Source: Planctomycetota bacterium
Lineage (GTDB): Bacteria; Planctomycetota; Phycisphaerae; UBA1845
DNA: 64,000 nt
Reading direction: 5' to 3'
Assembly: GCA_030616775.1 (NCBI GenBank)
Contig: JAUWWQ010000008.1
Coordinates: 1-64,000 of the forward strand
The notes beneath the pieces are model-generated. The model saw nothing but the letters and a program-made list of their open reading frames with translations. It searched no databases and had not been told where the DNA came from. This document shows positions 11,121 to 25,173 of this stretch, in pieces (the stretch's first letter is position 1; the number at the start of each line of letters is the position of its first letter). Made by a program: the position numbers and the translations under genes.

Positions 11121-14100
11121 TTACGGATGCTGCACCCGCTCGGTGACCATTTCGGTCAGCCGGCGAACTTCCGACTGGTCCTCACCCAGCATTCTAAGCT
11201 CACGTAGTTGCTCTTCCGTTGCATTGTCGATGTCCAGAGATCCATGAAGCGATCCAGTTCGCTCGTTGATGTCCACCTGCATGGCCTTGAGCACGAGCAA
11301 CTCGACCACCGTGGGCACCGGTTTATGTTGGACCATTTCGCCTTGACCGCTGCCCCCGCTACGATCCGACTCGACGAACTCGGTATCGACGGGAAGCGAT
11401 TGCGTCTGCACAATAGCGTTGACCAGTTTCTCCAATTCACGGACGATGCGATCCGTTGCGGCCACAAGATCGTTGTCTATTCGACGGCCACTGAGCTGCC
11501 GCCGGCTTTCGTCCATCCACTTCCCGACTCGCTTCAGGGCCCACTCATAAACAACCACCTTTTGAAAATCCTGGACTTGTGCATCGACCATAGCCCGCAC
11601 GCCGGCTTGTTCGCGGGCCAACTTGGAGGCCAGGCGTGCTTCCAAACGTGCGATCCGCCCGCGAGCCTCGATTGCGCCTTTGAGTTTGCCGATGCCGGTG
11701 TTGACGTCGCGCTGGGCTGAAAGAATCTCTTCGAGATCTTCCCGTATCTGTTCGAGGGAGCGCCACAGCGCTTCCTCCGCCGTTTCCTGTGCGGCCTCTT
11801 CCAGGCGGGCCAGTGCTTCTTCGAGTAATGCGATGGCTTCATCCTGTGCGAGCTTGGCCGGCTCAGCCTGACTTTCGCGAAGATGCGCTTCGGCCTCACC
11901 CATGGGAGTCGCCGCCTGGCGAACGGGTCGAGCAGCGACGGCGGCTCGTTCCACCATGGCAAGCTCCTGCCCCAGCAGCCTGGTGTTTCGTTTGAGCGTC
12001 CGCTGCTGTTGTGCGAATGAGTCAAACGTCGCCCGGTCGGCGCCGACCACACCGGCCTCGTGCGTGGCCCGTCGAAGGGCCTGCTGCTGCTCGAGCAGGT
12101 ACGCCACCTGATCCTCGGCACGCTCCAGACGCTTGCGCAGTTCTTCGAGTTCCTTATCGTCGCGGTCGCGCAGGGCTACGATCATTTTTCGGAGCCCGTC
12201 GGCTGCCGTTTTCTGGGCGATGGTCGCCGCGGCGGTTCGATTTTCCTCGATCGCCTCGACGGCGGTGTGCATATGCTTGGCTGTTTCGTGGGCCCGAGCC
12301 GCCCGAAGAGCCGCGTCGAGGGCTTGGGCACCGGGCTGATCCTTCTGGCGAGACGTTGCCGAAAGCTGCTTCATGCGTGCGAGGAGCTGTTCTATGTCGT
12401 CGGCAAGTTGTCCCTGTTGACGTTTGGTGCGTTTGAGTTTGGTCAGCTCCTCATCGGTCAGATATTCGACCGGCTTGCCCAGCATGGACTTGCCCAGCTC
12501 AGTGGTCTGATGGCGAAGGGCCTCTTGCCGGTCGAGCACATCGCGCGTTCTGGTGAGGAGTCCGTGAAAGCTGCCCCACTGGGATATGACGCGTATCAAG
12601 GCGTGCAGCCGCTCGACGGCCGCCTCCTGTGATTGCGCCGCCTGCCCCAATGTCTGCTGCTGTGTTTGGGCTTCGACCTGCTCGCGAACCTCGCTAAGCG
12701 CCGTGCTTGCGGTGGTCATAGGCCCGGCGGCGATCTGCTCGAGGGCCCTGCCCAAAGAGACGATCCGATTGCGAGCCTGCTCGTTCCCGGCATGGTTGGC
12801 CTTCATCCGCTCGATGAGCTTGTGAAAGCGAACAGCCAGATTGCGAAGGCGGCGGATCAGCCGTGCCTGTTGACCCGATAAGGTCGGGACGACTTCGCGC
12901 TCTGTATCCGTGAGGGTCGTCGGCTCGTCAGCGTGGCGCAACAGCGCCGTGGTGCGATCGAGCAGGTCTGCTTGATCGAGCGCAGCCTGACGAATACGGG
13001 TCTCCAGCAGGGCGATGTCACTTCGCAGGCGGATGTCGAACTCCACGTCACTGATGATCTTGATTCGCATAGATGCCGACCGGCCCACCTGGCCCTCACC
13101 CTCCGGGGAGGTGCGATTGTCGGTGGCCTCGGCCCGGTAAATGAGCAGGTCGCCCGCCGATAGCGACAACGGTGCGACACTCCACGGATAACGAACGATT
13201 CCCTCCACTCCGTCATCGTCGCGTGCCAAGCGCAGCCGGTCGGTCAGCGGTACTGTGCGGCTCTCGCTGCCACCGACGTGCTCGGCTTCCAGAGTAAGAC
13301 GGGCGATGCCGAAATCGTCTTCGACGCGAATCAATAACGGTACCGATCCCTTCGGTGTCAACTCGGTGACGGCCCGCGGCTCCACTATGGTGACGGTAGG
13401 CGGCGTATCCGGTATGACCAAAACCGAATACCTGGTTGCAGCACGGTTCTCGAAGCCTTCCGCATCACGCAGTTCTACCCGAAAGTGGACGTCGCTGCGG
13501 ATCTCGAAGCGCGACAAAAGCCTGTGGTGGTCCTCCGGATCGACGGTAAGTGGAATCAGCTCGTCGGTTTCCGTGCGCAGCCCCACGCTGGTCCCGGTCG
13601 AATCCGGTGGAATCGGTTTGCTGGCACGCAACGTCACCTGCATATGCCCGCCGATCGGCGCCTTAACCGGCCCGTCACCCAGGTCGTGTACGCGGGTACC
13701 TTGGCTGGATGCATACGGCGGCGGTTCGACGGCGGCCAGGGCCTCAACGACCTGCGGACGCCGTACCACCCGAATCCCATACGGGCTGCGCATCGTGCTG
13801 TCGTCACCGGCTTCAAACCAGTACGCAAGGTCCGCGGTGACGGCATCAATCGTGGCATAGAAGGTGTTATCCAGGTCGCGCTGCATGGCCAGCGTGGTGA
13901 TGCCTCCGTCGGGCTCGCGAAGGTGAACGACACCGCGCAGGGCATCGTGGAGGCCGCGCTGCACGTTCATGCGAACCGTCACTGACTCACCCACTGCCAC
14001 GGTTCGGTCACCGGTAAGCGGCAGTATCGAGACGTTGCGAGGCCACTCGATCTCGCCCCAGGGATGGATGTAGCGATACAGGCCGACGCGGGCCCAACCC

Positions 14101-14597
14101 GGTGAGACGAGCAGGACGACGGTAAGCACAGTTACGCTGACGACCAGCATCGCGCTACGCAGCATGAGCGGCCGTAACGACAGCGCGGATTCCAGCGGGA
14201 CATTTTTGATAACCTGCTCAGTGTTGGCGATCACCTGCTGCATCATTCCTTCCGAGCCGGCGTCGCGGTGTTCCATGAAGTTGACGGTGCTCAGGAGCCG
14301 GTCCTGAAAGGTGCCGAAGTGCGTTTCGAGCCGGGTGGCGATTTCATCAATGCCCAGGCGGGCCTGTAGAGGCCGGTGCACCCAACGGAAGGTCGCCCCG
14401 ATCAACCCCGCAACAGCCACCCCGGCAACCGCTATGCGAAGCAGCGGCGGCAGGCATACGAGCCAGTCCAACACCGCGATTATCAGGAAACCGGCCACCG
14501 CGGCGGCCAGGACGGTGCAAACACCATAGGCAACCAGCCGGACGCGAATGGCGGTCCGCAACGTAGTAAGGCGGTCAATAAGCTGCGACGGCGGCAT
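11121..14597 (-). CDS. Giant membrane-anchored coiled-coil protein (DUF4175-like)
   Basis: 1,158 residues from the ATG at 14597. Two close transmembrane helices come first (VAYGVCTVLAAAVAGFLIIAVLDWLV and LLRIAVAGVAVAGLIGATF). A third hydrophobic segment near residue 150 (SAMLVVSVTVLTVVLLVSPG) is followed by beta-rich domains, including VTIVEPRAVTELTPKGSVPLLIRVEDDFGI. From about residue 570 to 1,060 it is almost all heptad-like coiled coil rich in Gln, Glu, Arg and Ala. This layout matches large envelope proteins (DUF4175 type) found beside MoxR/BatA genes. Most of the chain should be periplasmic. There is no Shine-Dalgarno before the ATG; instead a tandem heptamer repeat occupies that position. 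A GTG/TTG start a few codons upstream inside the repeat is possible. The exact biochemical role is unknown. Confidence 0.75.
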   Translation of the reverse strand: MPPSQLIDRLTTLRTAIRVRLVAYGVCTVLAAAVAGFLIIAVLDWLVCLPPLLRIAVAGVAVAGLIGATFRWVHRPLQARLGIDEIATRLETHFGTFQDRLLSTVNFMEHRDAGSEGMMQQVIANTEQVIKNVPLESALSLRPLMLRSAMLVVSVTVLTVVLLVSPGWARVGLYRYIHPWGEIEWPRNVSILPLTGDRTVAVGESVTVRMNVQRGLHDALRGVVHLREPDGGITTLAMQRDLDNTFYATIDAVTADLAYWFEAGDDSTMRSPYGIRVVRRPQVVEALAAVEPPPYASSQGTRVHDLGDGPVKAPIGGHMQVTLRASKPIPPDSTGTSVGLRTETDELIPLTVDPEDHHRLLSRFEIRSDVHFRVELRDAEGFENRAATRYSVLVIPDTPPTVTIVEPRAVTELTPKGSVPLLIRVEDDFGIARLTLEAEHVGGSESRTVPLTDRLRLARDDDGVEGIVRYPWSVAPLSLSAGDLLIYRAEATDNRTSPEGEGQVGRSASMRIKIISDVEFDIRLRSDIALLETRIRQAALDQADLLDRTTALLRHADEPTTLTDTEREVVPTLSGQQARLIRRLRNLAVRFHKLIERMKANHAGNEQARNRIVSLGRALEQIAAGPMTTASTALSEVREQVEAQTQQQTLGQAAQSQEAAVERLHALIRVISQWGSFHGLLTRTRDVLDRQEALRHQTTELGKSMLGKPVEYLTDEELTKLKRTKRQQGQLADDIEQLLARMKQLSATSRQKDQPGAQALDAALRAARAHETAKHMHTAVEAIEENRTAAATIAQKTAADGLRKMIVALRDRDDKELEELRKRLERAEDQVAYLLEQQQALRRATHEAGVVGADRATFDSFAQQQRTLKRNTRLLGQELAMVERAAVAARPVRQAATPMGEAEAHLRESQAEPAKLAQDEAIALLEEALARLEEAAQETAEEALWRSLEQIREDLEEILSAQRDVNTGIGKLKGAIEARGRIARLEARLASKLAREQAGVRAMVDAQVQDFQKVVVYEWALKRVGKWMDESRRQLSGRRIDNDLVAATDRIVRELEKLVNAIVQTQSLPVDTEFVESDRSGGSGQGEMVQHKPVPTVVELLVLKAMQVDINERTGSLHGSLDIDNATEEQLRELRMLGEDQSEVRRLTEMVTERVQHP

Positions 14598-14605
14598 GAT
14601 AAACA

Positions 14606-14633
14606 AATTACGAATTACCAATTACCAATTACG
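14606..14633. repeat. Tandem heptamer repeat (AATTACG/C) x4
   Basis: Four 7-base units, AATTACG, AATTACC, AATTACC and AATTACG, lie eight bases ahead of the start of the giant coiled-coil gene, where a ribosome-binding site would be expected. Confidence 0.85.
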
Positions 14634-14684
14634 AAATGAACGTGCGATCCCACGGTTCTTCGCAACCGGTAGCCTGTAATGCTC

Positions 14685-17156
14685 CTACATCAATCCGAAC
14701 ACTTTCCGTAAGATCCACTCCATAGATATCATTGCAGCGAAAAGTATCAAAACCAATTTGGAATCCCACAAAGGTTCCGTTATGTCGTCAGGAATCTGCA
14801 CGCTGCGGTCCCGGATCGTGCCGAAAACCGCCTCCATCCGGTCCAGGTCTACGACCCTCCCGCCGGTGGCTGCGGCGATACGCTCCAGGGTTTCGTGGTC
14901 CGCTTCCGGGCGGCGCGATTCCAGATCGGGTCGCTCTACGCGAACAGGAGCCCAGGCGATCCGTTCGCCCTGACGCGGGGCGATGTCCGCAGTCTTGATG
15001 ACAAACCGGCCGGGACGCGGCGCGATCCAGGTCCCTTCATAGCGATTCGATTCGGGCCCGAGGCGATGTACGTCGAACCGTCCCACCACGGCCGGTGCGT
15101 CACCACGTTCCATCGTCGAGGAGTTGGAGTCCACGGAGGGTGAATCCGCGTAGGCTGAAGCCTGCGGCTCGGTAGCTACGATCTGAATGACCTCGCCCTG
15201 TTCGGCGAGAATCTGGGAGTCGAAGATTTCGACCTGGGTCTGCACGGGCGAGCCGTACGGGTAGACCCGTCGATCCGTCCGCAGAACCAGGCGGCGATTC
15301 TGAGCCACGCGTGAACTGGGCATCAGCTCGCGGGCCACCTTCACCCAATAAATGTCATGCAGTAGCTCACCTGTGTGGCGTCGCCATCGCCAGGTATCGT
15401 CAGTAGCCTGGAAGAAGAGCTTGCCTGCGCCGTATCGGCCGGTGACAACGATTGGCATGGGTCCGAAAGCGCTTCGACTCGTGGGGTGCTCCAGCAGGAC
15501 GGACGCTCCCGGTTTCGGACCTCGGGTGCGTGCCAACCAGAACAGTTCGGGGAGGGCCGTAAAGAACCGTTCGCTTTCGGCGCGATCCGCAGTGAATCGG
15601 AAGATGGGGCTTCGTTGACCCTCCGGGGTAAGTTGAGCCCGGAATCCGGTGGGCAGGGTGGTGTCATAGTGTCCCAGGAAGGTCGGATCGATGCGTATGG
15701 GCAGGAGCTTTTCGAGGGGCGTACCCAGGAAGCGGTAAGGGGCTGATCGCTCGCCGGCGACCAGGCCAAACCCGCCACCTCTATTGCCAACAAAATCCAA
15801 CAGCATGTTCATCTGTGCGCCGGTCAGCCAGCCGCCACGGGGGTTGACGTCGCCAAACAACACCACATCGTATCGGTTCAGCTCTTCGGGCGTTTCGGGG
15901 AATCGGCGGATCGGATCGGTACCTTCCTGAACGAAGTGTTCATCAGCTTCAATCAGCAAGACGCTCAGGTCCACAGTTTGCTCGCGGAGCAGTGCATTCT
16001 TCAGGTAGCGGTATTCGTATCGCGGGTAGCCGTCCACGTAGAGAATCCGGAGTCGATCGTCGAGAATGGTGACATCGACCTGGGCCGCATTGTTCTCGGT
16101 CGTAAGCTCACCCGGCAGTGGTGGTACCTCCACCCGGTAGCGCACCGTTCCGGTTTGCGACGGTCTGGTCTGTAACTCGACACTAATCGAGTCTTGCGAC
16201 GGATCGAGCACGAGCTGCCGCGATGCCACGGTGGTGCCGCTTCGCAGATCGACCAGGAGCACCGTGACAGTGGTCGGCTGGGTCAGGCCCTGGGCGGTGA
16301 CTTGAGCTTCCACAGCCAGCACATCGTTGACGAAGACGGTCTCCTGGGCCCGCAGCGGGCCGACGTCGATGTCGCGCCGCCTCTCCGTCGAGCCGATTCG
16401 AACCGGAAAAATGGGAATCTGTCGATCCCGGGCCAGATCGAGTGCGTCCTTCATACTGGTCGGATGGGTGGCCTGACCGTCGGTAGCGAGGATGATCGCC
16501 GCCAGCCGTCGTCCTTGGGCTTTCTCGATTATGTGGCGGATCGCACCGGCCAGGTCCGTCGTTGGGCCTTTAGCCTCGGCGTTTATGATCGACCCAACGA
16601 GGCTGCCGACGACCTGGTGAGCTGCAAAGAACCCTTCCGTATCCACCTCTCCCGAGAAGGTGCAGAGCTGAATTGCGTTGCGCTTAAGCAGTGCCTCTAA
16701 TGGAGCGGCCTCGTTGCGCACCATTGCATTCTGGATCAGTTCCAGACGCGAATGGTCCGCCAGGGCGATCGGATCCTTAAGCCCTGCACCGCGCGCGATC
16801 GACACTGCCAAATCCTCGTCACGGTAACTTTCGGCTGCGGCCATGCTCAGTGACGTGTCCAGCGCGACGACCGCATGCGACGGCTCGATGCGGTTACGTT
16901 GCAGAACCAGCGACGGCTGGCAGATAATTGCCACCGTCAGCGCCGCCAGCCCACAGCGCAGGGCAGCCAGCACGATCCGCCGGAGGGCGGAAGCCCGCTC
17001 TCGCCGATAGGTCATGGCAATCCACGTGAGCACCAGCACCGCAATGCAGAACACCGCCCAGACTTCCAGCGGACTCTCCCATCTGAGCGCAAGCGGAGCG
17101 TCACCCCCTAAATGGATGTCATCCAGGTCAAGAAGCCATTCCACAAGCTGCTTCAT
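14685..17156 (-). CDS. Membrane protein with von Willebrand factor A domain (BatB/GATase-like type)
   Basis: 823 residues. Two transmembrane helices (about 33-49 and 60-79) precede a VWA domain whose MIDAS motif is DTSLS at D100, with LATDGQATHP as the later metal-site loop. Next come beta domains, a class-I glutamine-amidotransferase-like region (RILYVDGYPRYEYRYLKNAL, then VVLFGDVNPRGGWLT) and a final transmembrane helix (LVLILFAAMISMEWILRKV). This architecture is typical of planctomycete VWA proteins next to BatA. It sits six bases after the BatA-like gene. A copy of the dispersed palindromic repeat is read in frame at 15141-15170 and encodes the peptide EPQASAYADS. Probably an envelope factor acting with the MoxR ATPase; substrates unknown. 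Confidence 0.82.
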   Translation of the reverse strand: MKQLVEWLLDLDDIHLGGDAPLALRWESPLEVWAVFCIAVLVLTWIAMTYRRERASALRRIVLAALRCGLAALTVAIICQPSLVLQRNRIEPSHAVVALDTSLSMAAAESYRDEDLAVSIARGAGLKDPIALADHSRLELIQNAMVRNEAAPLEALLKRNAIQLCTFSGEVDTEGFFAAHQVVGSLVGSIINAEAKGPTTDLAGAIRHIIEKAQGRRLAAIILATDGQATHPTSMKDALDLARDRQIPIFPVRIGSTERRRDIDVGPLRAQETVFVNDVLAVEAQVTAQGLTQPTTVTVLLVDLRSGTTVASRQLVLDPSQDSISVELQTRPSQTGTVRYRVEVPPLPGELTTENNAAQVDVTILDDRLRILYVDGYPRYEYRYLKNALLREQTVDLSVLLIEADEHFVQEGTDPIRRFPETPEELNRYDVVLFGDVNPRGGWLTGAQMNMLLDFVGNRGGGFGLVAGERSAPYRFLGTPLEKLLPIRIDPTFLGHYDTTLPTGFRAQLTPEGQRSPIFRFTADRAESERFFTALPELFWLARTRGPKPGASVLLEHPTSRSAFGPMPIVVTGRYGAGKLFFQATDDTWRWRRHTGELLHDIYWVKVARELMPSSRVAQNRRLVLRTDRRVYPYGSPVQTQVEIFDSQILAEQGEVIQIVATEPQASAYADSPSVDSNSSTMERGDAPAVVGRFDVHRLGPESNRYEGTWIAPRPGRFVIKTADIAPRQGERIAWAPVRVERPDLESRRPEADHETLERIAAATGGRVVDLDRMEAVFGTIRDRSVQIPDDITEPLWDSKLVLILFAAMISMEWILRKVFGLM
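15141..15170 (-). repeat. Dispersed palindromic repeat read in frame inside the VWA gene
   Basis: The minus-strand sequence GAGCCGCAGGCTTCAGCC and the following TACGCGGATTCA match the intergenic repeat copies at 20423, 21652 and 33676 with only a few changes. Here it is translated without a stop. Confidence 0.8.
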
Positions 17157-17162
17157 ACCTGC

Positions 17163-19430
17163 TCACCGCTTGGAAGCCGGTGCCACGCTCCGCTGCGAGC
17201 CGAACCGCATGGCCATCCACATCTCCAGTAAGAGCAAACCGATCACTGCGTATAGCGCGCTTAAGGCCAACTCTGTTGATCTGGCGGCAACGGGTTCCTT
17301 TGGAACCATGTTGGTGTCGCCGATCAGATGAACGTTTCGATCGAGGGCGGTGGCAAACTCGTCTTCGCCGATCGGGATGAGGTCGGATTCGGCGGGATCA
17401 ACATTGACGGTGAACACTCGAACTTCGGAGCCGATTGACACGGTGACCGCTTGGGCGTGCTCGACAGGGCCGTAGGTCATTGCGAGTGCTTCACCCTCCG
17501 GGACTAGAGAAGGCTCCGCCAGAGTCCCCTCGTCTGTAGTGACGCGCAAGGGAAGGGAACTCTCCAACGGGGTCAGAGGTTCACGGATCATCTGCCCCAC
17601 CGTGACGTTGCGATGATCGCCGTGGCGCGGGGACAGGAACGCCATCGCGCTTAGCATAAGAGAAACGTAGTCACCCTTGGCGGCGAGGTTGTTCCAATCC
17701 ATGTTGGCCGTCGTGGTGCACAGCAGGACTCGCCCCTTACCGAATGTCGATGCGAGCAGTGCCGGGTGGTTGTTGGTGTAGCTCAAGACGACTTCAGCGC
17801 GGTGCGGATCAGGCTCGATCGGCACATAGCGCTCCACCCGCGATAAGAACAGGCCACTCTCGGGATGGTCGGCAAAATCAGCCACGATTGAATGGACTGC
17901 ATCGTCTATCCTGAAGCCGAAGAAGGTGGCATCCTCCAGGGGTACCACCACCGGTCGGGCAATCCTACCGGGCAGCAAGCCGTTGCCGTCGGCGTAAGCG
18001 AACTGGTTGTAGTTGTCCACGCTCACCAAGTCGCCGCCGAAGAGCATCAGGCCGCCACCGCGGGCCACGAAGCTCTCGAGCTGTTTCCACAACTGGTTGG
18101 GAAGGCGCGGGACATTACACAAAGCGACGACGTCATAGTCCGACAGGGCTTCGCCGGTCAGCTCGGGTTCGGTGATCACCTTTGGCACGATCAGAGTCGA
18201 GTCGGTTCCCAGTGGCACTGGAGCGAGGGCCGTGGCCAGAAAGCCTGCCTGACCGTCGAACTGCGTGGTGCCCGGGCGACCGTCGACCAGCAGCACCGGC
18301 ATGGTCTCCCGGACCTCGATCGACAGGTACCGTGTGTTGTCGTGCTCCAGCACATCTTCCGGATGGGGGGCGAGTTTGGCTTCCATCAGGTGAGTACCGG
18401 GAGTGGAGAACTCGGTGGTGATGGTGGCTGCTGTGGACTCGCCGGGGGCCAGGGTGGGTAACTGTTGGCGACGGATGATCCGGCCATCGCGGCGGATTTG
18501 CAGGGTAAGGTTATGTGCGTTCGAGGACCCGCTATTCGTCACCTCCGCCGCAATCGATACGGGCAGGTTGATGCCGATTAGGGGGGATTGGGCTACAAAG
18601 CGAGTAACCGCGACGTTGTCGGATGGGCCCGGTGCGGCGTGGACCACCGTCAGATCAGCGGCGGAATCGGCGAGCATGTCGGCAAGATGGCGCATAGCCA
18701 AGACGGCGGGCGTGGGATTCTCCGTTGTTTCGCTGTGCCAGACGCTGCGAGGAACATCGGAAATGAGATAGACTGCATAGTTGCCTCTGGCGACCTGAGA
18801 ATCCTGGAGGATTTCGACGGTTGTAGTTAGCGCTCCAACGGTATCGGTTCCTCGTTGGGTGGGCTGGAGGGCGGCAAGGCGCTCTTTGACGAGGCGGCGG
18901 TCGTAGGCGGTGTGGGCGATCACGGCCACGGCCGGAGACGAAAGCGTCACTATGCTGACAGGGTCGGTTAGAGGAAAGGTGTCAAGCAGGTCTTGGGCAC
19001 AACGTTTGGCTGATTCAAACCGGGTTGCCCCATCGGCTCTGCGAGCGTTCATGGACAGGGAGTTATCGAGCAAAAGCACTCGGTGAACGCGAGACGAATG
19101 CGACGGCCACAGCGGCAATGCGGGCAAGAACGGGCGGGCAACCGCCAGGCCCAAAAGGACGACTACGGCTATGCGGATCAAAAGGAGCAGCGACTGTTCG
19201 AGGCGGATACGCCTTGCACTGCGTCGGTTGGCGGCGAGCAGAAACGACATCGCAGCCCAAGGGACGCGCACGTAACGTCGGCGGTTGATCAGGTGTACCA
19301 GGATCGGAATCAGCCCGGCTAAAAGAGCAAGGCCCGCGATTGACGGATGGACGAAGGGGACGGCGAGGAGGGATGAAGGATGAAGGATGAAGGATGAAGG
19401 ATGAAGGATGAAGGATGAAAGTGTGGCCAC
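17163..19430 (-). CDS. BatA-like membrane protein with VWA domain
   Basis: About 755 residues. It has the BatA N-terminal signature PFVHPSIAGLALLAGLIPILVHLINRRR with WAAMSFLLAANRR, a second helix (LLLLIRIAVVVLLGLAVARPF), a VWA region with MIDAS-like DNSLS, and further beta and amidotransferase-like domains (VVALCNVPRLPNQLW; GGGLMLFGGD). A C-terminal transmembrane helix (ALYAVIGLLLLEMWMAM) follows. I place the start at GTG 19430: AGGAG overlaps the DUF58 stop codon and lies seven bases upstream. Directly after it, seven GGATGAA units are translated as repeated SSFILHP before the BatA signature, and no normal start codon remains at the expected position. Acts in the inner membrane, presumably with MoxR and DUF58 partners. 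Confidence 0.82.
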   Translation of the reverse strand: MATLSSFILHPSSFILHPSSLLAVPFVHPSIAGLALLAGLIPILVHLINRRRYVRVPWAAMSFLLAANRRSARRIRLEQSLLLLIRIAVVVLLGLAVARPFLPALPLWPSHSSRVHRVLLLDNSLSMNARRADGATRFESAKRCAQDLLDTFPLTDPVSIVTLSSPAVAVIAHTAYDRRLVKERLAALQPTQRGTDTVGALTTTVEILQDSQVARGNYAVYLISDVPRSVWHSETTENPTPAVLAMRHLADMLADSAADLTVVHAAPGPSDNVAVTRFVAQSPLIGINLPVSIAAEVTNSGSSNAHNLTLQIRRDGRIIRRQQLPTLAPGESTAATITTEFSTPGTHLMEAKLAPHPEDVLEHDNTRYLSIEVRETMPVLLVDGRPGTTQFDGQAGFLATALAPVPLGTDSTLIVPKVITEPELTGEALSDYDVVALCNVPRLPNQLWKQLESFVARGGGLMLFGGDLVSVDNYNQFAYADGNGLLPGRIARPVVVPLEDATFFGFRIDDAVHSIVADFADHPESGLFLSRVERYVPIEPDPHRAEVVLSYTNNHPALLASTFGKGRVLLCTTTANMDWNNLAAKGDYVSLMLSAMAFLSPRHGDHRNVTVGQMIREPLTPLESSLPLRVTTDEGTLAEPSLVPEGEALAMTYGPVEHAQAVTVSIGSEVRVFTVNVDPAESDLIPIGEDEFATALDRNVHLIGDTNMVPKEPVAARSTELALSALYAVIGLLLLEMWMAMRFGSQRSVAPASKR
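19371..19419. repeat. Heptamer tandem repeat (GGATGAA) x7, inside coding sequence
   Basis: Seven perfect GGATGAA units (49 bases) begin 11 bases after the predicted GTG start of the BatA-like gene. Because 7 is not a multiple of 3, gain or loss of one unit would shift the frame. All three frames of the repeat are open and give the same cyclic heptapeptide. Confidence 0.92.
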
Positions 19431-19440
19431 GGTTACGCTC

Positions 19441-20385
19441 CTAACCCCCACCCAACACGCGGGACGAGCGTCTACGGAGCCTGGCACTGCGTGTTGCCAG
19501 ATATCCACTCAGCGCCGCGTCCAGCGGTGTCGTGGTATCGAATATCGTGAAATCGATGTGCATGTGACCGCAACCGGTCCGCAGTCGGGCTTGGAAGCGA
19601 TCGACTTCCTCCAGATAACGTGCTCGGAGCAGTCGCGGGTCGGTGAGCAGCTTCCCGGTCGACTCCAGGCCGTCGAACATGGTGGGCCCCTTGAGTGGAA
19701 GCGTCAGCTCGGCGTGGTCCCAGATGTTCCAGACGATCAGCTCATGATGACGGTAACGCAGGTATTTGAAGCCTTTGAGAATCGCGTCCGGGTCGTCGAA
19801 CAGGTCGCTGATGAGGATGATCAGCGTCCGGTGGCTAAGTAGCTCGCCCAGTTCGTTGAGCACCCTTCCCATGGATGTCTTCGCGGGACCGGTCTTGCTG
19901 GTCAGTTCGTGTATGAGCGTCTTCCAGTGTTGGGCGTTGTTGGCAGGCCTGACAGACTGAGTCAGGTGCTCATCGAACAGGGCAAGCCCGACCGAATCCT
20001 GCTGCTGTATGGTCAGGTAGGCGATGGCGGCGGCGACGGCGGTGGCGTATTCATATTTGGTCATGCCGGCACGGGGCGAGCGGTAGTCCATTGATTCGCT
20101 GCCGTCGACGACCAACATGACATTAAGGTTGGCTTCCTGCTCGTACTCCTTGATGTAATATTTGTCGGTCTTGCCATAGACCTTCCAGTCGATGTGACGA
20201 AGATCGTCACCCTGGGTATATGCGCGGTGATCGGCGAACTCGACGGATACCCCGCGACGGGGGCTATGATGCATCCCGCTGAAGAATCCCTCGACAATCA
20301 GCCGGGCCCGCAACTCCAGCCCGGTGATCTTGGCGAGCACCTTCGGATCGAGGTACCTTCGATAATCCTGTCTGCCGGTGTCCAT
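19441..20385 (-). CDS. DUF58 domain protein
   Basis: 314 residues, with no transmembrane helix. The DUF58 signature is clear: VEGFFSGMHHSPRRGVSVEFADHRAYTQGDDLRHIDWKVYG, followed by a VWA-like fold with VMLVVDGSESM as MIDAS motif and LIILISDLFDD. DUF58 proteins are cytoplasmic partners of MoxR ATPases and BatA-type proteins. The 156-base gap to moxR holds a short heptamer repeat and one palindromic repeat. Its stop codon overlaps the Shine-Dalgarno of the BatA-like gene. Confidence 0.92.
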   Translation of the reverse strand: MDTGRQDYRRYLDPKVLAKITGLELRARLIVEGFFSGMHHSPRRGVSVEFADHRAYTQGDDLRHIDWKVYGKTDKYYIKEYEQEANLNVMLVVDGSESMDYRSPRAGMTKYEYATAVAAAIAYLTIQQQDSVGLALFDEHLTQSVRPANNAQHWKTLIHELTSKTGPAKTSMGRVLNELGELLSHRTLIILISDLFDDPDAILKGFKYLRYRHHELIVWNIWDHAELTLPLKGPTMFDGLESTGKLLTDPRLLRARYLEEVDRFQARLRTGCGHMHIDFTIFDTTTPLDAALSGYLATRSARLRRRSSRVLGGG

Positions 20386-20395
20386 GTAAATGGTG

Positions 20396-20416
20396 AATTG
20401 CGAATAGCGAATTGCG
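20396..20416. repeat. Short tandem heptamer repeat AATTGCG / AATAGCG / AATTGCG
   Basis: Three 7-base units lie 11 bases upstream of the DUF58 start codon. The unit sequence differs from the other two heptamer families in this operon, but length and placement match. Confidence 0.7.
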
Positions 20417-20422
20417 AAGGAC

Positions 20423-20457
20423 CTGAGCCGCAGGCTTCAGCCTGCGCGGACTTCAAC
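20423..20457. repeat. Dispersed palindromic repeat (single copy)
   Basis: CTGAGCCGCAGGCTTCAGCC followed by TGCGCGGACTTCAAC. It is the same family as the three tandem copies at 21652-21768, the pair at 33676-33771 and the in-frame copy at 15141-15170. The GCAGGCTtcAGCCTGC centre is a near-perfect palindrome. Confidence 0.85.
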
Positions 20458-20541
20458 AGTGGCAACAGGTCAGGAAGCAGCAGCAGCCGGGCACATCCTT
20501 TCTTCCTGGTTCGTCGTTCGAGACTCGCAATTCATCCCTTC

Positions 20542-21630
<1,089 letters not shown>

Positions 21631-21651
21631 TAGTACAACTCCTCTGATCCT

Positions 21652-21768
21652 CTGAGCCGCAGGCTTTAGCCTGCGCGGACTTCAACTCCACTGAGCTACA
21701 GGCTTTAGCCTGCGCGGACTTCAACTCCACTGAGCCACAGGCATTAGCCTGCGCGGACCTCCGGGCAG
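21652..21768. repeat. Three tandem 39-base palindromic repeats
   Basis: Units at 21652-21690, 21691-21729 and 21730-21768, each of the form CTGAGCC(G/A)CAGGC + palindromic core + TGCGCGGACTTCAACTCCA. The first two are nearly identical and the third diverges at its 3' end. They lie 22 bases before the moxR start, so they will be transcribed as hairpins in its leader or form part of its promoter region. Confidence 0.9.
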
Positions 21769-21848
21769 GTTGGACCCGCAGTTTGTGGATACCTGTGCGG
21801 AACTCCGTACCACTCGACGGCCGGGGCTCGGGTGAGCCGATGCGCTGA

Positions 21849-22895
21849 TCACGGTTCCTCATTGATTATATTGATGAGTGACCGCAGTCGACCCGCGCTC
21901 TGCCGATTAAAGGCAAAGACCAGCCTGATCTTGTCCGGATAGGCCCCATTTTCGCCGTCCAAGGGGGCGTGCACCTGCTCGAAACGACCGCCTGCAAGGA
22001 TATCGGCGAAGGTCTCGTCGATCTGGGAGAGCGTTTTACTGGAAAGTGGGCTGTTCAGCCGCAGGACCAGCTCATCCCCGACGAAGCGGGAGGAATGGTA
22101 GCGGCGGTAGAATTTCAGCACCTCGGCCACGGCGTCCTCGGCCCGATCGGTCAGGTAGAACAAGTCCATGTCCTCCGGGTTGATCATCTCGCAGCCGAGC
22201 AGCTCCGCCTCCACAAACTCCCGCCAACGCTGCCAGTAGCTGCCGCCCGGCTCATCACACATCACGATCGGAATCGGCGACGACTTGATCGTCTGGACCA
22301 AAGTGAGCGACTCGAACCCCTCATCCTGGGTACCGAACCCACCGGGGAACAGGGCGATGGCCCGGGCCTCTTTGACGAAGATGACTTTGCGGGTGAAGAA
22401 GTATTTGAAGTTCACCAGCTTGGGATCGTCGGCGATGATGGCGTTGGTTTCCTGCTCGAAGGGCAGGCTGATGGCCATGCCGAAGCTCGCCTCTCGGCGG
22501 GCCCCGTGGTGTCCGGCACGCATGATCCCGCCTCCGGCGCCGGTGATCACCATCCACCCGTGCCGCTGCATCAGTTCGGCGAACTTTTTGGCTTGCAGGT
22601 ATTGCGGGTGGTCTTCCGGCGTGCGCGAGGAGCCGAACATGCTCACCTTGGGGATGTCCGTATACGGTGCGAACACCTTGAACGCATAGCGAAGCTCCCT
22701 CAGGGCAGCGTTGAGGATCTTCAGGTCACCACGGTCGGCGCCGTCGGCCACTAGCCGGCAGATCGTAATGAGCATCTGAGCAAGCAGGTCGTCGTCGTGG
22801 CCGGGCGCGTATTCCGAGAGGAACTTCTTAATCGCCTCCGACCGCCCTTTCCGCCAATCCTCTAGCGAACCAGGCGAAATAGCGGACTCGTCCAT
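21849..22895 (-). CDS. LOG family protein (nucleotide-monophosphate nucleosidase-like Rossmann fold)
   Basis: 348 residues from the ATG at 22895; a GGGAG Shine-Dalgarno precedes it. The LOG pattern is present: VSMFGSSRTPEDHPQY, VITGAGGGIMRAGHHGARR, and PGGFGTQDEGFESLTLVQT, corresponding to the PGGxGTxxE catalytic/nucleotide motif. LOG proteins hydrolyse the N-glycosidic bond of nucleoside 5'-monophosphates (as in cytokinin activation) or remain uncharacterised; many are mislabelled lysine decarboxylases. It is longer than the core LOG family (about 190), with N- and C-terminal extensions as in the larger YgdH/PpnN-like subgroup. Stands alone on the minus strand. Confidence 0.87.
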   Translation of the reverse strand: MDESAISPGSLEDWRKGRSEAIKKFLSEYAPGHDDDLLAQMLITICRLVADGADRGDLKILNAALRELRYAFKVFAPYTDIPKVSMFGSSRTPEDHPQYLQAKKFAELMQRHGWMVITGAGGGIMRAGHHGARREASFGMAISLPFEQETNAIIADDPKLVNFKYFFTRKVIFVKEARAIALFPGGFGTQDEGFESLTLVQTIKSSPIPIVMCDEPGGSYWQRWREFVEAELLGCEMINPEDMDLFYLTDRAEDAVAEVLKFYRRYHSSRFVGDELVLRLNSPLSSKTLSQIDETFADILAGGRFEQVHAPLDGENGAYPDKIRLVFAFNRQSAGRLRSLINIINEEP

Positions 22896-22919
22896 GCATG
22901 TTCTCCCGGGGATCCGCAA

Positions 22920-23397
22920 AACCAGCGCGTCCCATCTCCCCTATCGGCCAATGGACTATATGCCGGCAATTGCGCAGGGACCACCGGGCAGGGATAGAGA
23001 CGGCCCCACAAGCCCCGTAAGAACAGGCATTTTCGGCCTTCCAGCGTGCCTGGCAACTTTATCGATCCCGATGCCCCTCGGCACGCAATTCCCTATGTAC
23101 TCAATTGCGACGATGCCACCTGGGTATCGGCATCGTCGGGTTCCAGTCGTTCGCACAACACGGCGCCCACGCTAGTGGAGATAGCGCGGACCACCCCGGC
23201 TCATTCCGCCACCGACGGCATCACCCCCGTTATTCACGGTGCCATCGCCATATTCCGCGACGCCACCGCCGTCCTAATCCCATGCGCAGGCTTTATCGCC
23301 CCTGGGACAGACCACAGGTCGATGCTCACGATCGCCCTGCCCATCCGCCTTACTTTCGAGATTCAGCTTTTCCTCTCGTCGCTCGACCGAACCGCGC
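22920..23397. other. Intergenic region without recognised genes
   Basis: Several frames are open here, but none has coding-like composition, a Shine-Dalgarno or family resemblance. I see no RNA gene. Confidence 0.4.
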
Positions 23398-23643
23398 TTA
23401 GCCACTTGGCTCCGCCGCTCCACCACGAGTCCTCCCTCGGTATATTATAGCACGCAGCCCTACAGCCCCGGCAATGTAGACCAACAACTCTGCGCACCGG
23501 TAAAGTGTGCTGATATTCACGCGGTCACTGTATCCGCCGTAACAATCCAAGTAGGCGTCGAGGTCCCATATCGGAATCTGGAACATGATCCTGTTGAAAA
23601 CGAATACAGCCAGCAACATGTATGCTACTTCCAAAATCGTCAC
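23398..23643 (-). CDS. Possible small membrane protein
   Basis: 81 codons starting at GTG 23643, with a G-rich stretch (GGCGGGGGG) eight bases upstream that could serve as a ribosome-binding site. The translation has two hydrophobic segments (TILEVAYMLLAVFVFNRIMF and LYRCAELLVYIAGAVGLRAIIY) joined by a polar Tyr/Asp-rich loop, and a basic tail, as expected for a two-helix membrane protein. No family recognised. Stands alone between the LOG gene and the divergent lysine reductase gene. It could be a chance frame. Confidence 0.4.
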   Translation of the reverse strand: MTILEVAYMLLAVFVFNRIMFQIPIWDLDAYLDCYGGYSDRVNISTLYRCAELLVYIAGAVGLRAIIYRGRTRGGAAEPSG

Positions 23644-23660
23644 GATTGCCCCCCGCCTTG

Positions 23661-23681
23661 TTCATCCTTCATCCTTCAACC
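23661..23681. repeat. Short heptamer repeat TTCATCC TTCATCC TTCAACC
   Basis: Two exact and one variant copy of the complement of the GGATGAA heptamer found at 19371-19419, showing that this unit is dispersed. Confidence 0.7.
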
Positions 23682-23877
23682 TTCCGAGGCAGTTCCATTC
23701 ATCACTTGAGCGGTAACGCAAGGTGGTTATCCCCGATACACGCGGTCTGACGAACCACGAGCTGTAACTCCCGAGGGGCACTCGCCCGGGCGAGCTTAAT
23801 CGTGCGTCCACGCCGAAGGACCGGTTGCGGCGGTTGACCCCGGTCGATTTGTCTTCTAGGCTCACCGCACAACCGCG

Positions 23878-25173
23878 ATGATCGGTATTCGCCATGAAAA
23901 TAAGAGCCGATGGGAGTCCCGGGTGCCAGTGGTCCCGGACGACGTCCGAGCCCTCATCCGTGACCACGGGGTTGGGTTTTGCGTTCAGAGATCACCAACG
24001 CGAGTATTCTCTGACGCCGAGTTCGCCGCCGCCGGTGCGACCATAGCCGACGACTTGCCGGACTGTCCCATCGTCATGGGCATCAAAGAAATCCCACCGG
24101 ACAAGCTCCTCCCCAATCGAACGTACGTCTTGTTCTCCCATGTCATCAAGGGGCAGCCGGCCAACATGCCCATGCTCCATCGTCTGATGGAGCTGAAGTG
24201 CCAACTGATCGATTATGAACGGATCGCAGACGGGGAAGGTCGGCGGCTGGTGTTCTTCGGTCGCTTCGCCGGGCTGGCCGGGATGATCGATACTCTCTGG
24301 GCACTCGGACAGCGCTGGCGGCACGAAGGTGTGGAGAACCCCTTCACCGACGTGCGCCAAGCGTATCAATACAAGAACATCGAGCACGCCAAGGCGGACA
24401 TTGCGGAAGTCGGGGAGCGTATTCGGCAGCGTGGGCTTCCGGAGGCATGCCGGCCTCTTGTATGTGGTTTCGCAGGGTACGGACAGGTTTCCCAAGGGGC
24501 TCAAGAGATTTATGATCTGCTGCCCGTTGAGATGGTGTCGCCCGGTGAGCTGGCCGCCGTGCCGCTCGCGGCTAACGCTTGCTTTAAGGTTGTTTTCCAC
24601 GAGAAGCACATGGTCGAGCGGATCGACGCCTCGTCCCCCTTTGAGCTACAGGAGTACTACAATCACCCCGAGCGCTATCGCGGACAATTTTACACCTACT
24701 TGCCCCACCTGACGGTGCTGGTCAATGGCATCTACTGGGAGCCGAAGTATCCCCGCCTGGTCACGCGGGAACTGCTCCGTGACCTATACCGGCGGGCGGG
24801 TCCGCCTCGCCTCCGCGTGATCGGGGACATTTCGTGTGACATCGAGGGCTCGGTGGAATGCACGATCCGAACGACGGAGCCGGACAATCCGGTCTTCGTC
24901 TACGAGCCTGATACCGGCCGGACTTGCGATGGCGTGGATGGCGAAGGTCCGGTTGTCCTGGCGGTGGACCATCTTCCATGCGAGCTTCCTGTGGATTCCT
25001 CGACTTATTTCAGCCAGTCGCTCAAGTCCTTCATTCCCGCCCTGGCCCGGGCGGACTTCAGCGGGCCACTGGCTGACAGCGGCTTGCCACGCGAACTGAT
25101 TCGGGCCACGATTGTCTACCATGGAGCGCTGACCCAGCCATACCGGTATCTGGAGCAGTTCGTGAAGGAATAA
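23878..25173 (+). CDS. Lysine-ketoglutarate reductase (saccharopine dehydrogenase, lysine-forming) domain protein
   Basis: 431 residues resembling the N-terminal half of animal and plant AASS. It starts MIGIRHENKSRWESRVPVVPDDV (alanine-dehydrogenase/PNT N-terminal domain), with SHVIKGQPANMPML and YERIADGEGRRLVFFGRFAG. The dinucleotide-binding segment is FAGYGQVSQGAQEIYDLLP, and DISCDIEGSVECT comes later. It would condense lysine and 2-oxoglutarate to saccharopine in the cytoplasm. The next gene supplies the second half of the pathway as a separate polypeptide. No Shine-Dalgarno is visible before the ATG, but the family N-terminus fits this start. No lysine riboswitch was seen upstream. Confidence 0.87.
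   Translation: MIGIRHENKSRWESRVPVVPDDVRALIRDHGVGFCVQRSPTRVFSDAEFAAAGATIADDLPDCPIVMGIKEIPPDKLLPNRTYVLFSHVIKGQPANMPMLHRLMELKCQLIDYERIADGEGRRLVFFGRFAGLAGMIDTLWALGQRWRHEGVENPFTDVRQAYQYKNIEHAKADIAEVGERIRQRGLPEACRPLVCGFAGYGQVSQGAQEIYDLLPVEMVSPGELAAVPLAANACFKVVFHEKHMVERIDASSPFELQEYYNHPERYRGQFYTYLPHLTVLVNGIYWEPKYPRLVTRELLRDLYRRAGPPRLRVIGDISCDIEGSVECTIRTTEPDNPVFVYEPDTGRTCDGVDGEGPVVLAVDHLPCELPVDSSTYFSQSLKSFIPALARADFSGPLADSGLPRELIRATIVYHGALTQPYRYLEQFVKE

Follow-up and report, generated by a model that had tools for sequence, protein, structure and literature searches.

Heptamer arrays at gene boundaries of a planctomycete operon as probable ends of small elements carrying S23 genes

Tandem arrays of seven-base words lie at the gene boundaries of an operon in a Planctomycetota bacterium (assembly GCA_030616775.1, contig JAUWWQ010000008.1, positions 1 to 64,000; hereafter the window, to whose 64,000 nucleotides all coordinates refer unless a locus is named). 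What process could have placed arrays of different words and the same unit length in one operon? The initial annotation, made from the sequence of the window, proposed a mechanism that inserts or expands heptamers at translation starts. We propose, with a probability of about 0.62, that the arrays form the terminal repeats of small insertion elements resembling the intervening sequences (IVS) of 23S rRNA and carrying an S23 gene (PF05635). S23 is the four-helix-bundle protein of these intervening sequences (IVP). A full element would measure about 350-560 bp and comprise tandem copies of a 7-bp word (8-bp in some cases), the PF05635 gene and, usually, the inverted word beyond it. The three arrays of the window operon are likely gene-less remains or non-autonomous derivatives of such elements, because their words, polarity and placement match those of element ends.

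Full elements are present in the source genome (G000; 4.45 Mb in 108 contigs), of which 2.55 Mb (57%) was read for the analyses of arrays and genes, with genes called by our own predictor script. The three best gaps with paired arrays (457-556 bp) each hold a small gene of the PF05635 family (23S_rRNA_IVP; E 1e-15 to 4e-23). The genome encodes six PF05635 genes, and the four within the DNA read (L010, L096, L122 and L128; L labels denote loci other than the window) all have arrays on both sides. These arrays are built from four different words and are mostly inverted copies of each other. Two-sided arrays were found at only 7 of the 1376 other genes (p=2e-9). The four full elements are located between protein genes and outside 23S rRNA, with the gene pairs atpD/atpG, DUF58/MoxR, a carboxylase pair and an efflux pair as neighbors (names read by eye). 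A MoxR-DUF58 junction paralogous to that of the window is among the sites carrying a full element.

The flanking of PF05635 genes by arrays extends to many phyla. Among the first 27 loci analyzed across all sources, 4 of them heptamer-selected, an array of period 7 or 8 (score 8) was detected on at least one side in 25 and on both sides in 21, compared to 12% and 0.4% of random windows of these loci. An independent set of PF05635 loci was retrieved through protein similarity alone. Plasmid and viral loci (n = 30, with one viral contig; score 9) had an array on at least one side in 27 cases and on both sides in 21, and flanks of other genes had one in 8 of 56 cases. In the last 11 loci, which stem from Chloroflexota, Bacteroidota, Spirochaetota, Bacillota and cyanobacteria, seven was the best lag on 22 of 22 flanks. 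The flanking words are mostly locus-specific, with GGGAACA in Nostoc edaphicum, GGTGACA in Anabaena, GGGTGTA in Calothrix, GAGGACG in Azospirillum, AAGGTTN in Riemerella and CCGCTCT in Treponema. Arrays upstream of the PF05635 gene are purine-rich in 21 of 27 cases and downstream arrays are pyrimidine-rich in 21 of 28. At L300 (upstream of 1504), a very long near-perfect array stands on both sides of the S23 gene in direct order. In viral contigs, the S23 alignment search returned no conserved stretch and single-protein scans gave one locus and none; no phage match was found.

Homologous junctions with and without the gene differ in length, as judged by the distance between aligned protein ends, which is good to a few bases. 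The atpG-atpD junction with the gene measures 480 bp in the source genome and 448 bp in the congener G001, and without the gene it measures 4 bp in G004, 83 bp in G003 and 81 bp in G021. On C45, the MoxR-DUF58 junction contains the gene in three congeners (about 440-635 bp), and there is no gap in G003. Gloeocapsa and Chlorohelix have the gene in the DUF1156-Swt1 junction; in Thermus oshimai and Meiothermus this junction is contiguous. Empty homologous junctions lack both gene and arrays, which indicates that the two arrive together in the seam between operon genes. The atpG-atpD array is identical at 31 of 32 bases between the source genome and G001, with flanking proteins 68-81% identical. 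A survey of 81 genomes of the class also tied arrays to the gene. Arrays of the pattern GAATNNN were present in 36 of 67 genomes with PF05635 and in 1 of 14 (7%) without, and their share rose with PF05635 copies from 33% at 1-2 to 43% at 3-5 and 90% at six or more. The rank correlation of arrays with PF05635 number was 0.55 (0.52 after genome size), although the genomes are related and the correlation therefore carries shared ancestry. In G040 and G096, the reversed control pattern had 35 and 48 matches, more than the pattern itself, revealing another heptamer family there.

Gene-less arrays of the source genome match element ends in words, polarity and placement. Among short periods, 7 shows the strongest over-representation, with 23 exact arrays compared to 1 in a Markov shuffle. 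Allowing mismatches, 46 lag-7 arrays are intergenic and 5 lie in coding sequence, with 0 in shuffled gaps, so that a process placing heptamer arrays at gene boundaries, as initially proposed, is supported. Three units of GGATGAA (1 mismatch permitted) have 32 matches in the genome and the reversed control has 0. The words vary (GGATGAA, GAATNNN, GATTGNN, TCAGNNN, AAGGTCN), and mixed arrays retain a fixed core while the other bases vary (mean conserved run 3.2 vs 2.1; 0/400 permutations). Placement was assessed for 56 arrays of score 10 or more. Within 40 nt, 22 have a stop codon only, 17 a start codon only, 2 have both and 15 neither. Stops are enriched, with 21 arrays within 15 nt (7.5 expected) and 23 within 25 nt (11.8 expected; 0/2000 shuffles in both cases). 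The enrichment near starts anticipated by the initial annotation does exist in mild form (10 arrays within 15 nt vs 5.7 expected, p=0.04; 17 within 25 nt vs 8.7, p=0.002), yet stops are favored at least as strongly. Its statement that arrays are always at translation starts is not supported, given this preference for stops, the 15 arrays near neither codon and the scarcity of arrays in divergent gaps, where every boundary is a start (5 vs 13.7 expected; p=0.003).

Polarity and pairing are aspects that point to element ends. Of 34 classified arrays with the words GAAT, GATTG or GGATGA at most 40 nt from a boundary, 33 are gap-directed (left boundaries 21 to 0, right boundaries 12 to 1). The associated p-value of 2e-8 is optimistic, since the choice of words followed inspection of the data. 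For 16 arrays, the gap also contains an inverted partner. Such inverted pairing and the bracketing of S23/IVP genes went beyond the view of the initial annotation. A universal cross-phylum orientation rule for GAATNNC arrays was rejected (30 out vs 31 in). Telomere-like end addition at breaks was considered for the outward G-rich polarity and dropped because the bracketed gaps contain S23 genes. The unit is also not always 7 bases long, as had been claimed, given an 8-bp array family AAACGTCN with heptamer-like placement and polarity and a tendency toward gap edges. Arrays of this family, with one variable base and often inverted, occur at L031 3281-3339, L046 12948-13034, L091 18003-18095 and L078 5406-5483.

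The window contains all four arrays described initially, three of them in an operon on the minus strand with the order MoxR, DUF58, BatA-like, VWA and DUF4175-like. The MoxR-DUF58 gap (20386-20541, minus strand) is as a whole a putative gene-less element, composed of a left arm, the palindrome GCAGGCTGAAGCCTGC and a right arm. The left arm (20395-20418; units GAATTGC, GAATAGC, GAATTGC and GAA, x3.4) precedes the DUF58 gene (PF01882; 19441-20385; ATG at 20385) by 9 nt. An AATTGCG array of three units 11 bases before this gene had been reported; the array is real, with a differing middle unit (GAATAGC) and the shorter distance. The degenerate right arm (20509-20537; GTTCGTC, GTTCGAG, ACTCGCA, ATTCATC) is inverted relative to the left and lies next to the stop of the MoxR-type AAA ATPase gene (PF07726; 20542-21630). 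The arms pair in a predicted fold running from end to end of the gap (z -3.35; 1/200 shuffles equally stable). In contrast to these inverted arms, the other two operon arrays have one arm each. The array at 14606-14632 (AATTACG, AATTACC, AATTACC, AATTAC(G); x3.9) forms an outward-reading GAATTAC-type arm and ends, as noted before, 8 nt ahead of the large coiled-coil, DUF4175-like gene (PF13779; 11121-14597; ATG at 14597). Seven GGATGAA units with zero mismatches (19371-19419) lie inside the open reading frame (ORF) of the BatA-like gene (PF07584, VWA; 17163-19430), just behind its GTG as initially described, starting 11 nt past the first base of this start codon at 19430, which has AGGAG upstream. 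On the gene strand the units read TTCATCC and encode FILHPSS repeats in the protein's N-terminus. The same operon includes a VWA-domain gene at 14685-17156. The fourth array, formerly listed as a GGATGAA fragment at 23661, is a short TTCATCC array (x3.4, 23661-23684). It lies away from gene starts, within a 94-bp dispersed repeat that shares 85% identity with L004 14368-14461. No Rfam family matched window positions 14000-24500.

Relatives retain some of these arrays. The BatA-like gene of G002 also has 7 in-frame units with few substitutions, the same unit count as in the source genome, and its DUF58 array is equal in length with units offset by one. G001 lacks the BatA array and has 15 fewer codons ahead of the conserved PFVHP motif. 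In another genome of the class, four TTCATCC units directly follow the ATG of a prepilin-like gene (L177 1501-1528) and read MKPSSFILHPSSFRKGFSLPEV, paralleling the BatA case with its units just past the start.

The elements would enter the few bases between neighboring operon genes, which could explain why arrays hug stop and start codons. Movement might proceed through an RNA intermediate that folds and is bound by the S23 protein, on the model of rRNA intervening sequences, and a host-supplied enzyme, although this is a guess. Gene-less arrays would then gain or lose units slowly through slippage. Several observations weigh against this reading, in addition to the shared ancestry, the self-made gene calls in 57% of the genome and the late choice of orientation words mentioned above. 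The window has no PF05635 gene, so that the link for its three operon arrays is by resemblance, and none was found in the BatA-homologue loci of 30 relatives. Most arrays in the source genome have no neighboring S23 gene. Among 114 cross-phylum loci picked by GAATNNC arrays, 4 contain an S23 gene, with an adjoining array in two; arrays can therefore exist alone, and an S23 gene beside every heptamer array was rejected on this count. The flank order is direct rather than inverted in some cases (7 of 27), and L299 has no flanking arrays. No transposase or integrase belonging to the element was found. The copies in a given genome have diverged, and no instance of recent movement was seen.

The many arrays without an S23 gene would also fit the reverse order of events, in which replication slippage forms heptamers at gene junctions and S23/IVP elements then prefer them as targets. 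Homogeneous arrays in cyanobacteria and gammaproteobacteria resemble plain slippage products, and the BatA array differs between G000 and G002 by point differences only. We nevertheless regard this order as unlikely. At the empty counterparts of filled sites, the neighboring genes are 4-83 bp apart or have no gap, with no room for arrays in the shortest, and slippage alone would not yield two sides that are usually inverted copies of one word.

Slippage repeats without any function or connection, associated with S23 through a shared intergenic location, are very improbable. Heptamer simple repeats are indeed over-represented in many genomes (PMC4692102). However, such an incidental association is contradicted at S23 loci by the excess of both-sided arrays (4/4 vs 0.5% and 21/30 vs 0.4%), and the dose relation across genomes and the polarity rule also speak against it. 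We see just as little chance that the arrays serve translational control at starts, with the BatA array as a phase-variable switch, because one 7-bp unit shifts the frame, and the other two replacing ribosome-binding sequences. The mild enrichment at starts and the in-frame position of the BatA array behind its AGGAG-GTG start are compatible with such control, and TAACTGA repeats ahead of Beggiatoaceae starts have been proposed as regulator sites (PMC4679880). Yet stops are favored as much or more, divergent gaps are avoided, and the 7 in-frame units retained in G002 suggest a slow rate of change.

The insertion elements proposed here share features with several known systems. Intervening sequences in the 23S rRNA of Leptospira and Coxiella have the PF05635 protein, complementary ends and a sporadic spread in common with them, and that of Coxiella measures about 430 bp. 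They differ in that the present elements are located between operon protein genes outside rRNA, usually with clear 7-bp arrays on both sides, and that gene-less arrays are common. The short tandemly repeated repetitive (STRR) sequences of heterocystous cyanobacteria, fairly named as an analogue in the initial annotation, likewise consist of dispersed, mainly intergenic 7-bp units, and AATTACG words are shared with Dolichospermum loci flanking S23 genes. To our knowledge, STRRs have been described without a gene partner. In the Coxiella IVS, the S23 ORF is preceded by GACAGAT heptamers, two or three in number depending on the strain (PMC4990558). TAACTGA heptamers of Beggiatoaceae, Cyanobacteria and Bacteroidetes are also found near starts with a patchy distribution across phyla; a binding protein or mobile element was suspected and a translational regulator proposed, whereas S23 is unmentioned (PMC4679880). 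The source genome has a TCAGTTA/TCAGTTG array of this family (L010 17402). Avd proteins of diversity-generating retroelements are four-helix-bundle relatives, and one S23 protein matches bAvd weakly (E=0.004, below the bAvd cut-off). No reverse transcriptase is annotated beside the plasmid S23 loci carrying annotation, and no template repeat is annotated in the loci read. Repetitive extragenic palindromes (REP), bacterial interspersed mosaic elements (BIME) and other intergenic palindromes similarly have inverted arms and avoid divergent gaps, but the present arrays are tandem heptads with a fixed core and full copies have an S23 gene. The literature searched, with early STRR papers outside it, nowhere describes heptamer-array ends as a general feature of S23 genes.

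As far as we know, bacterial heptamer repeats have been described from the cyanobacterial STRRs onward with no agreement on their origin, and we know of no function for the S23/IVP protein so far. Tying the two together gives each a partner and defines an element whose ends, cargo and target can be tested. Tentatively, and with more doubt than confidence, S23/IVP genes with heptamer-array ends might represent an unrecognized class of mobile elements in at least 8 phyla, inserting exactly between co-transcribed genes with a new word per site and giving rise to most bacterial heptamer repeats, including cyanobacterial STRRs. If true, the element reading would account for odd N-terminal extensions such as the FILHPSS repeats, as well as for S23 genes inside CRISPR, restriction and ATP-synthase operons.

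Plasmid S23/IVP genes were observed in or beside defense-like clusters (cas6-cas4, csx2-cas1, cas10-cmr3, hsdS-hsdR, DUF1156-Swt1 and helicase-methylase) at L300, L305, L308, L314, L315, L318, L319 and L321-L323. A REP-like palindrome, GAGCCGCAGGCTTNAGCCTGCG, occurs in the window at 21648-21758 and 20419-20460, and three copies of it make a 39-bp tandem. Its GAGCCG points outward from gene 3' ends in 59 cases compared to 11.

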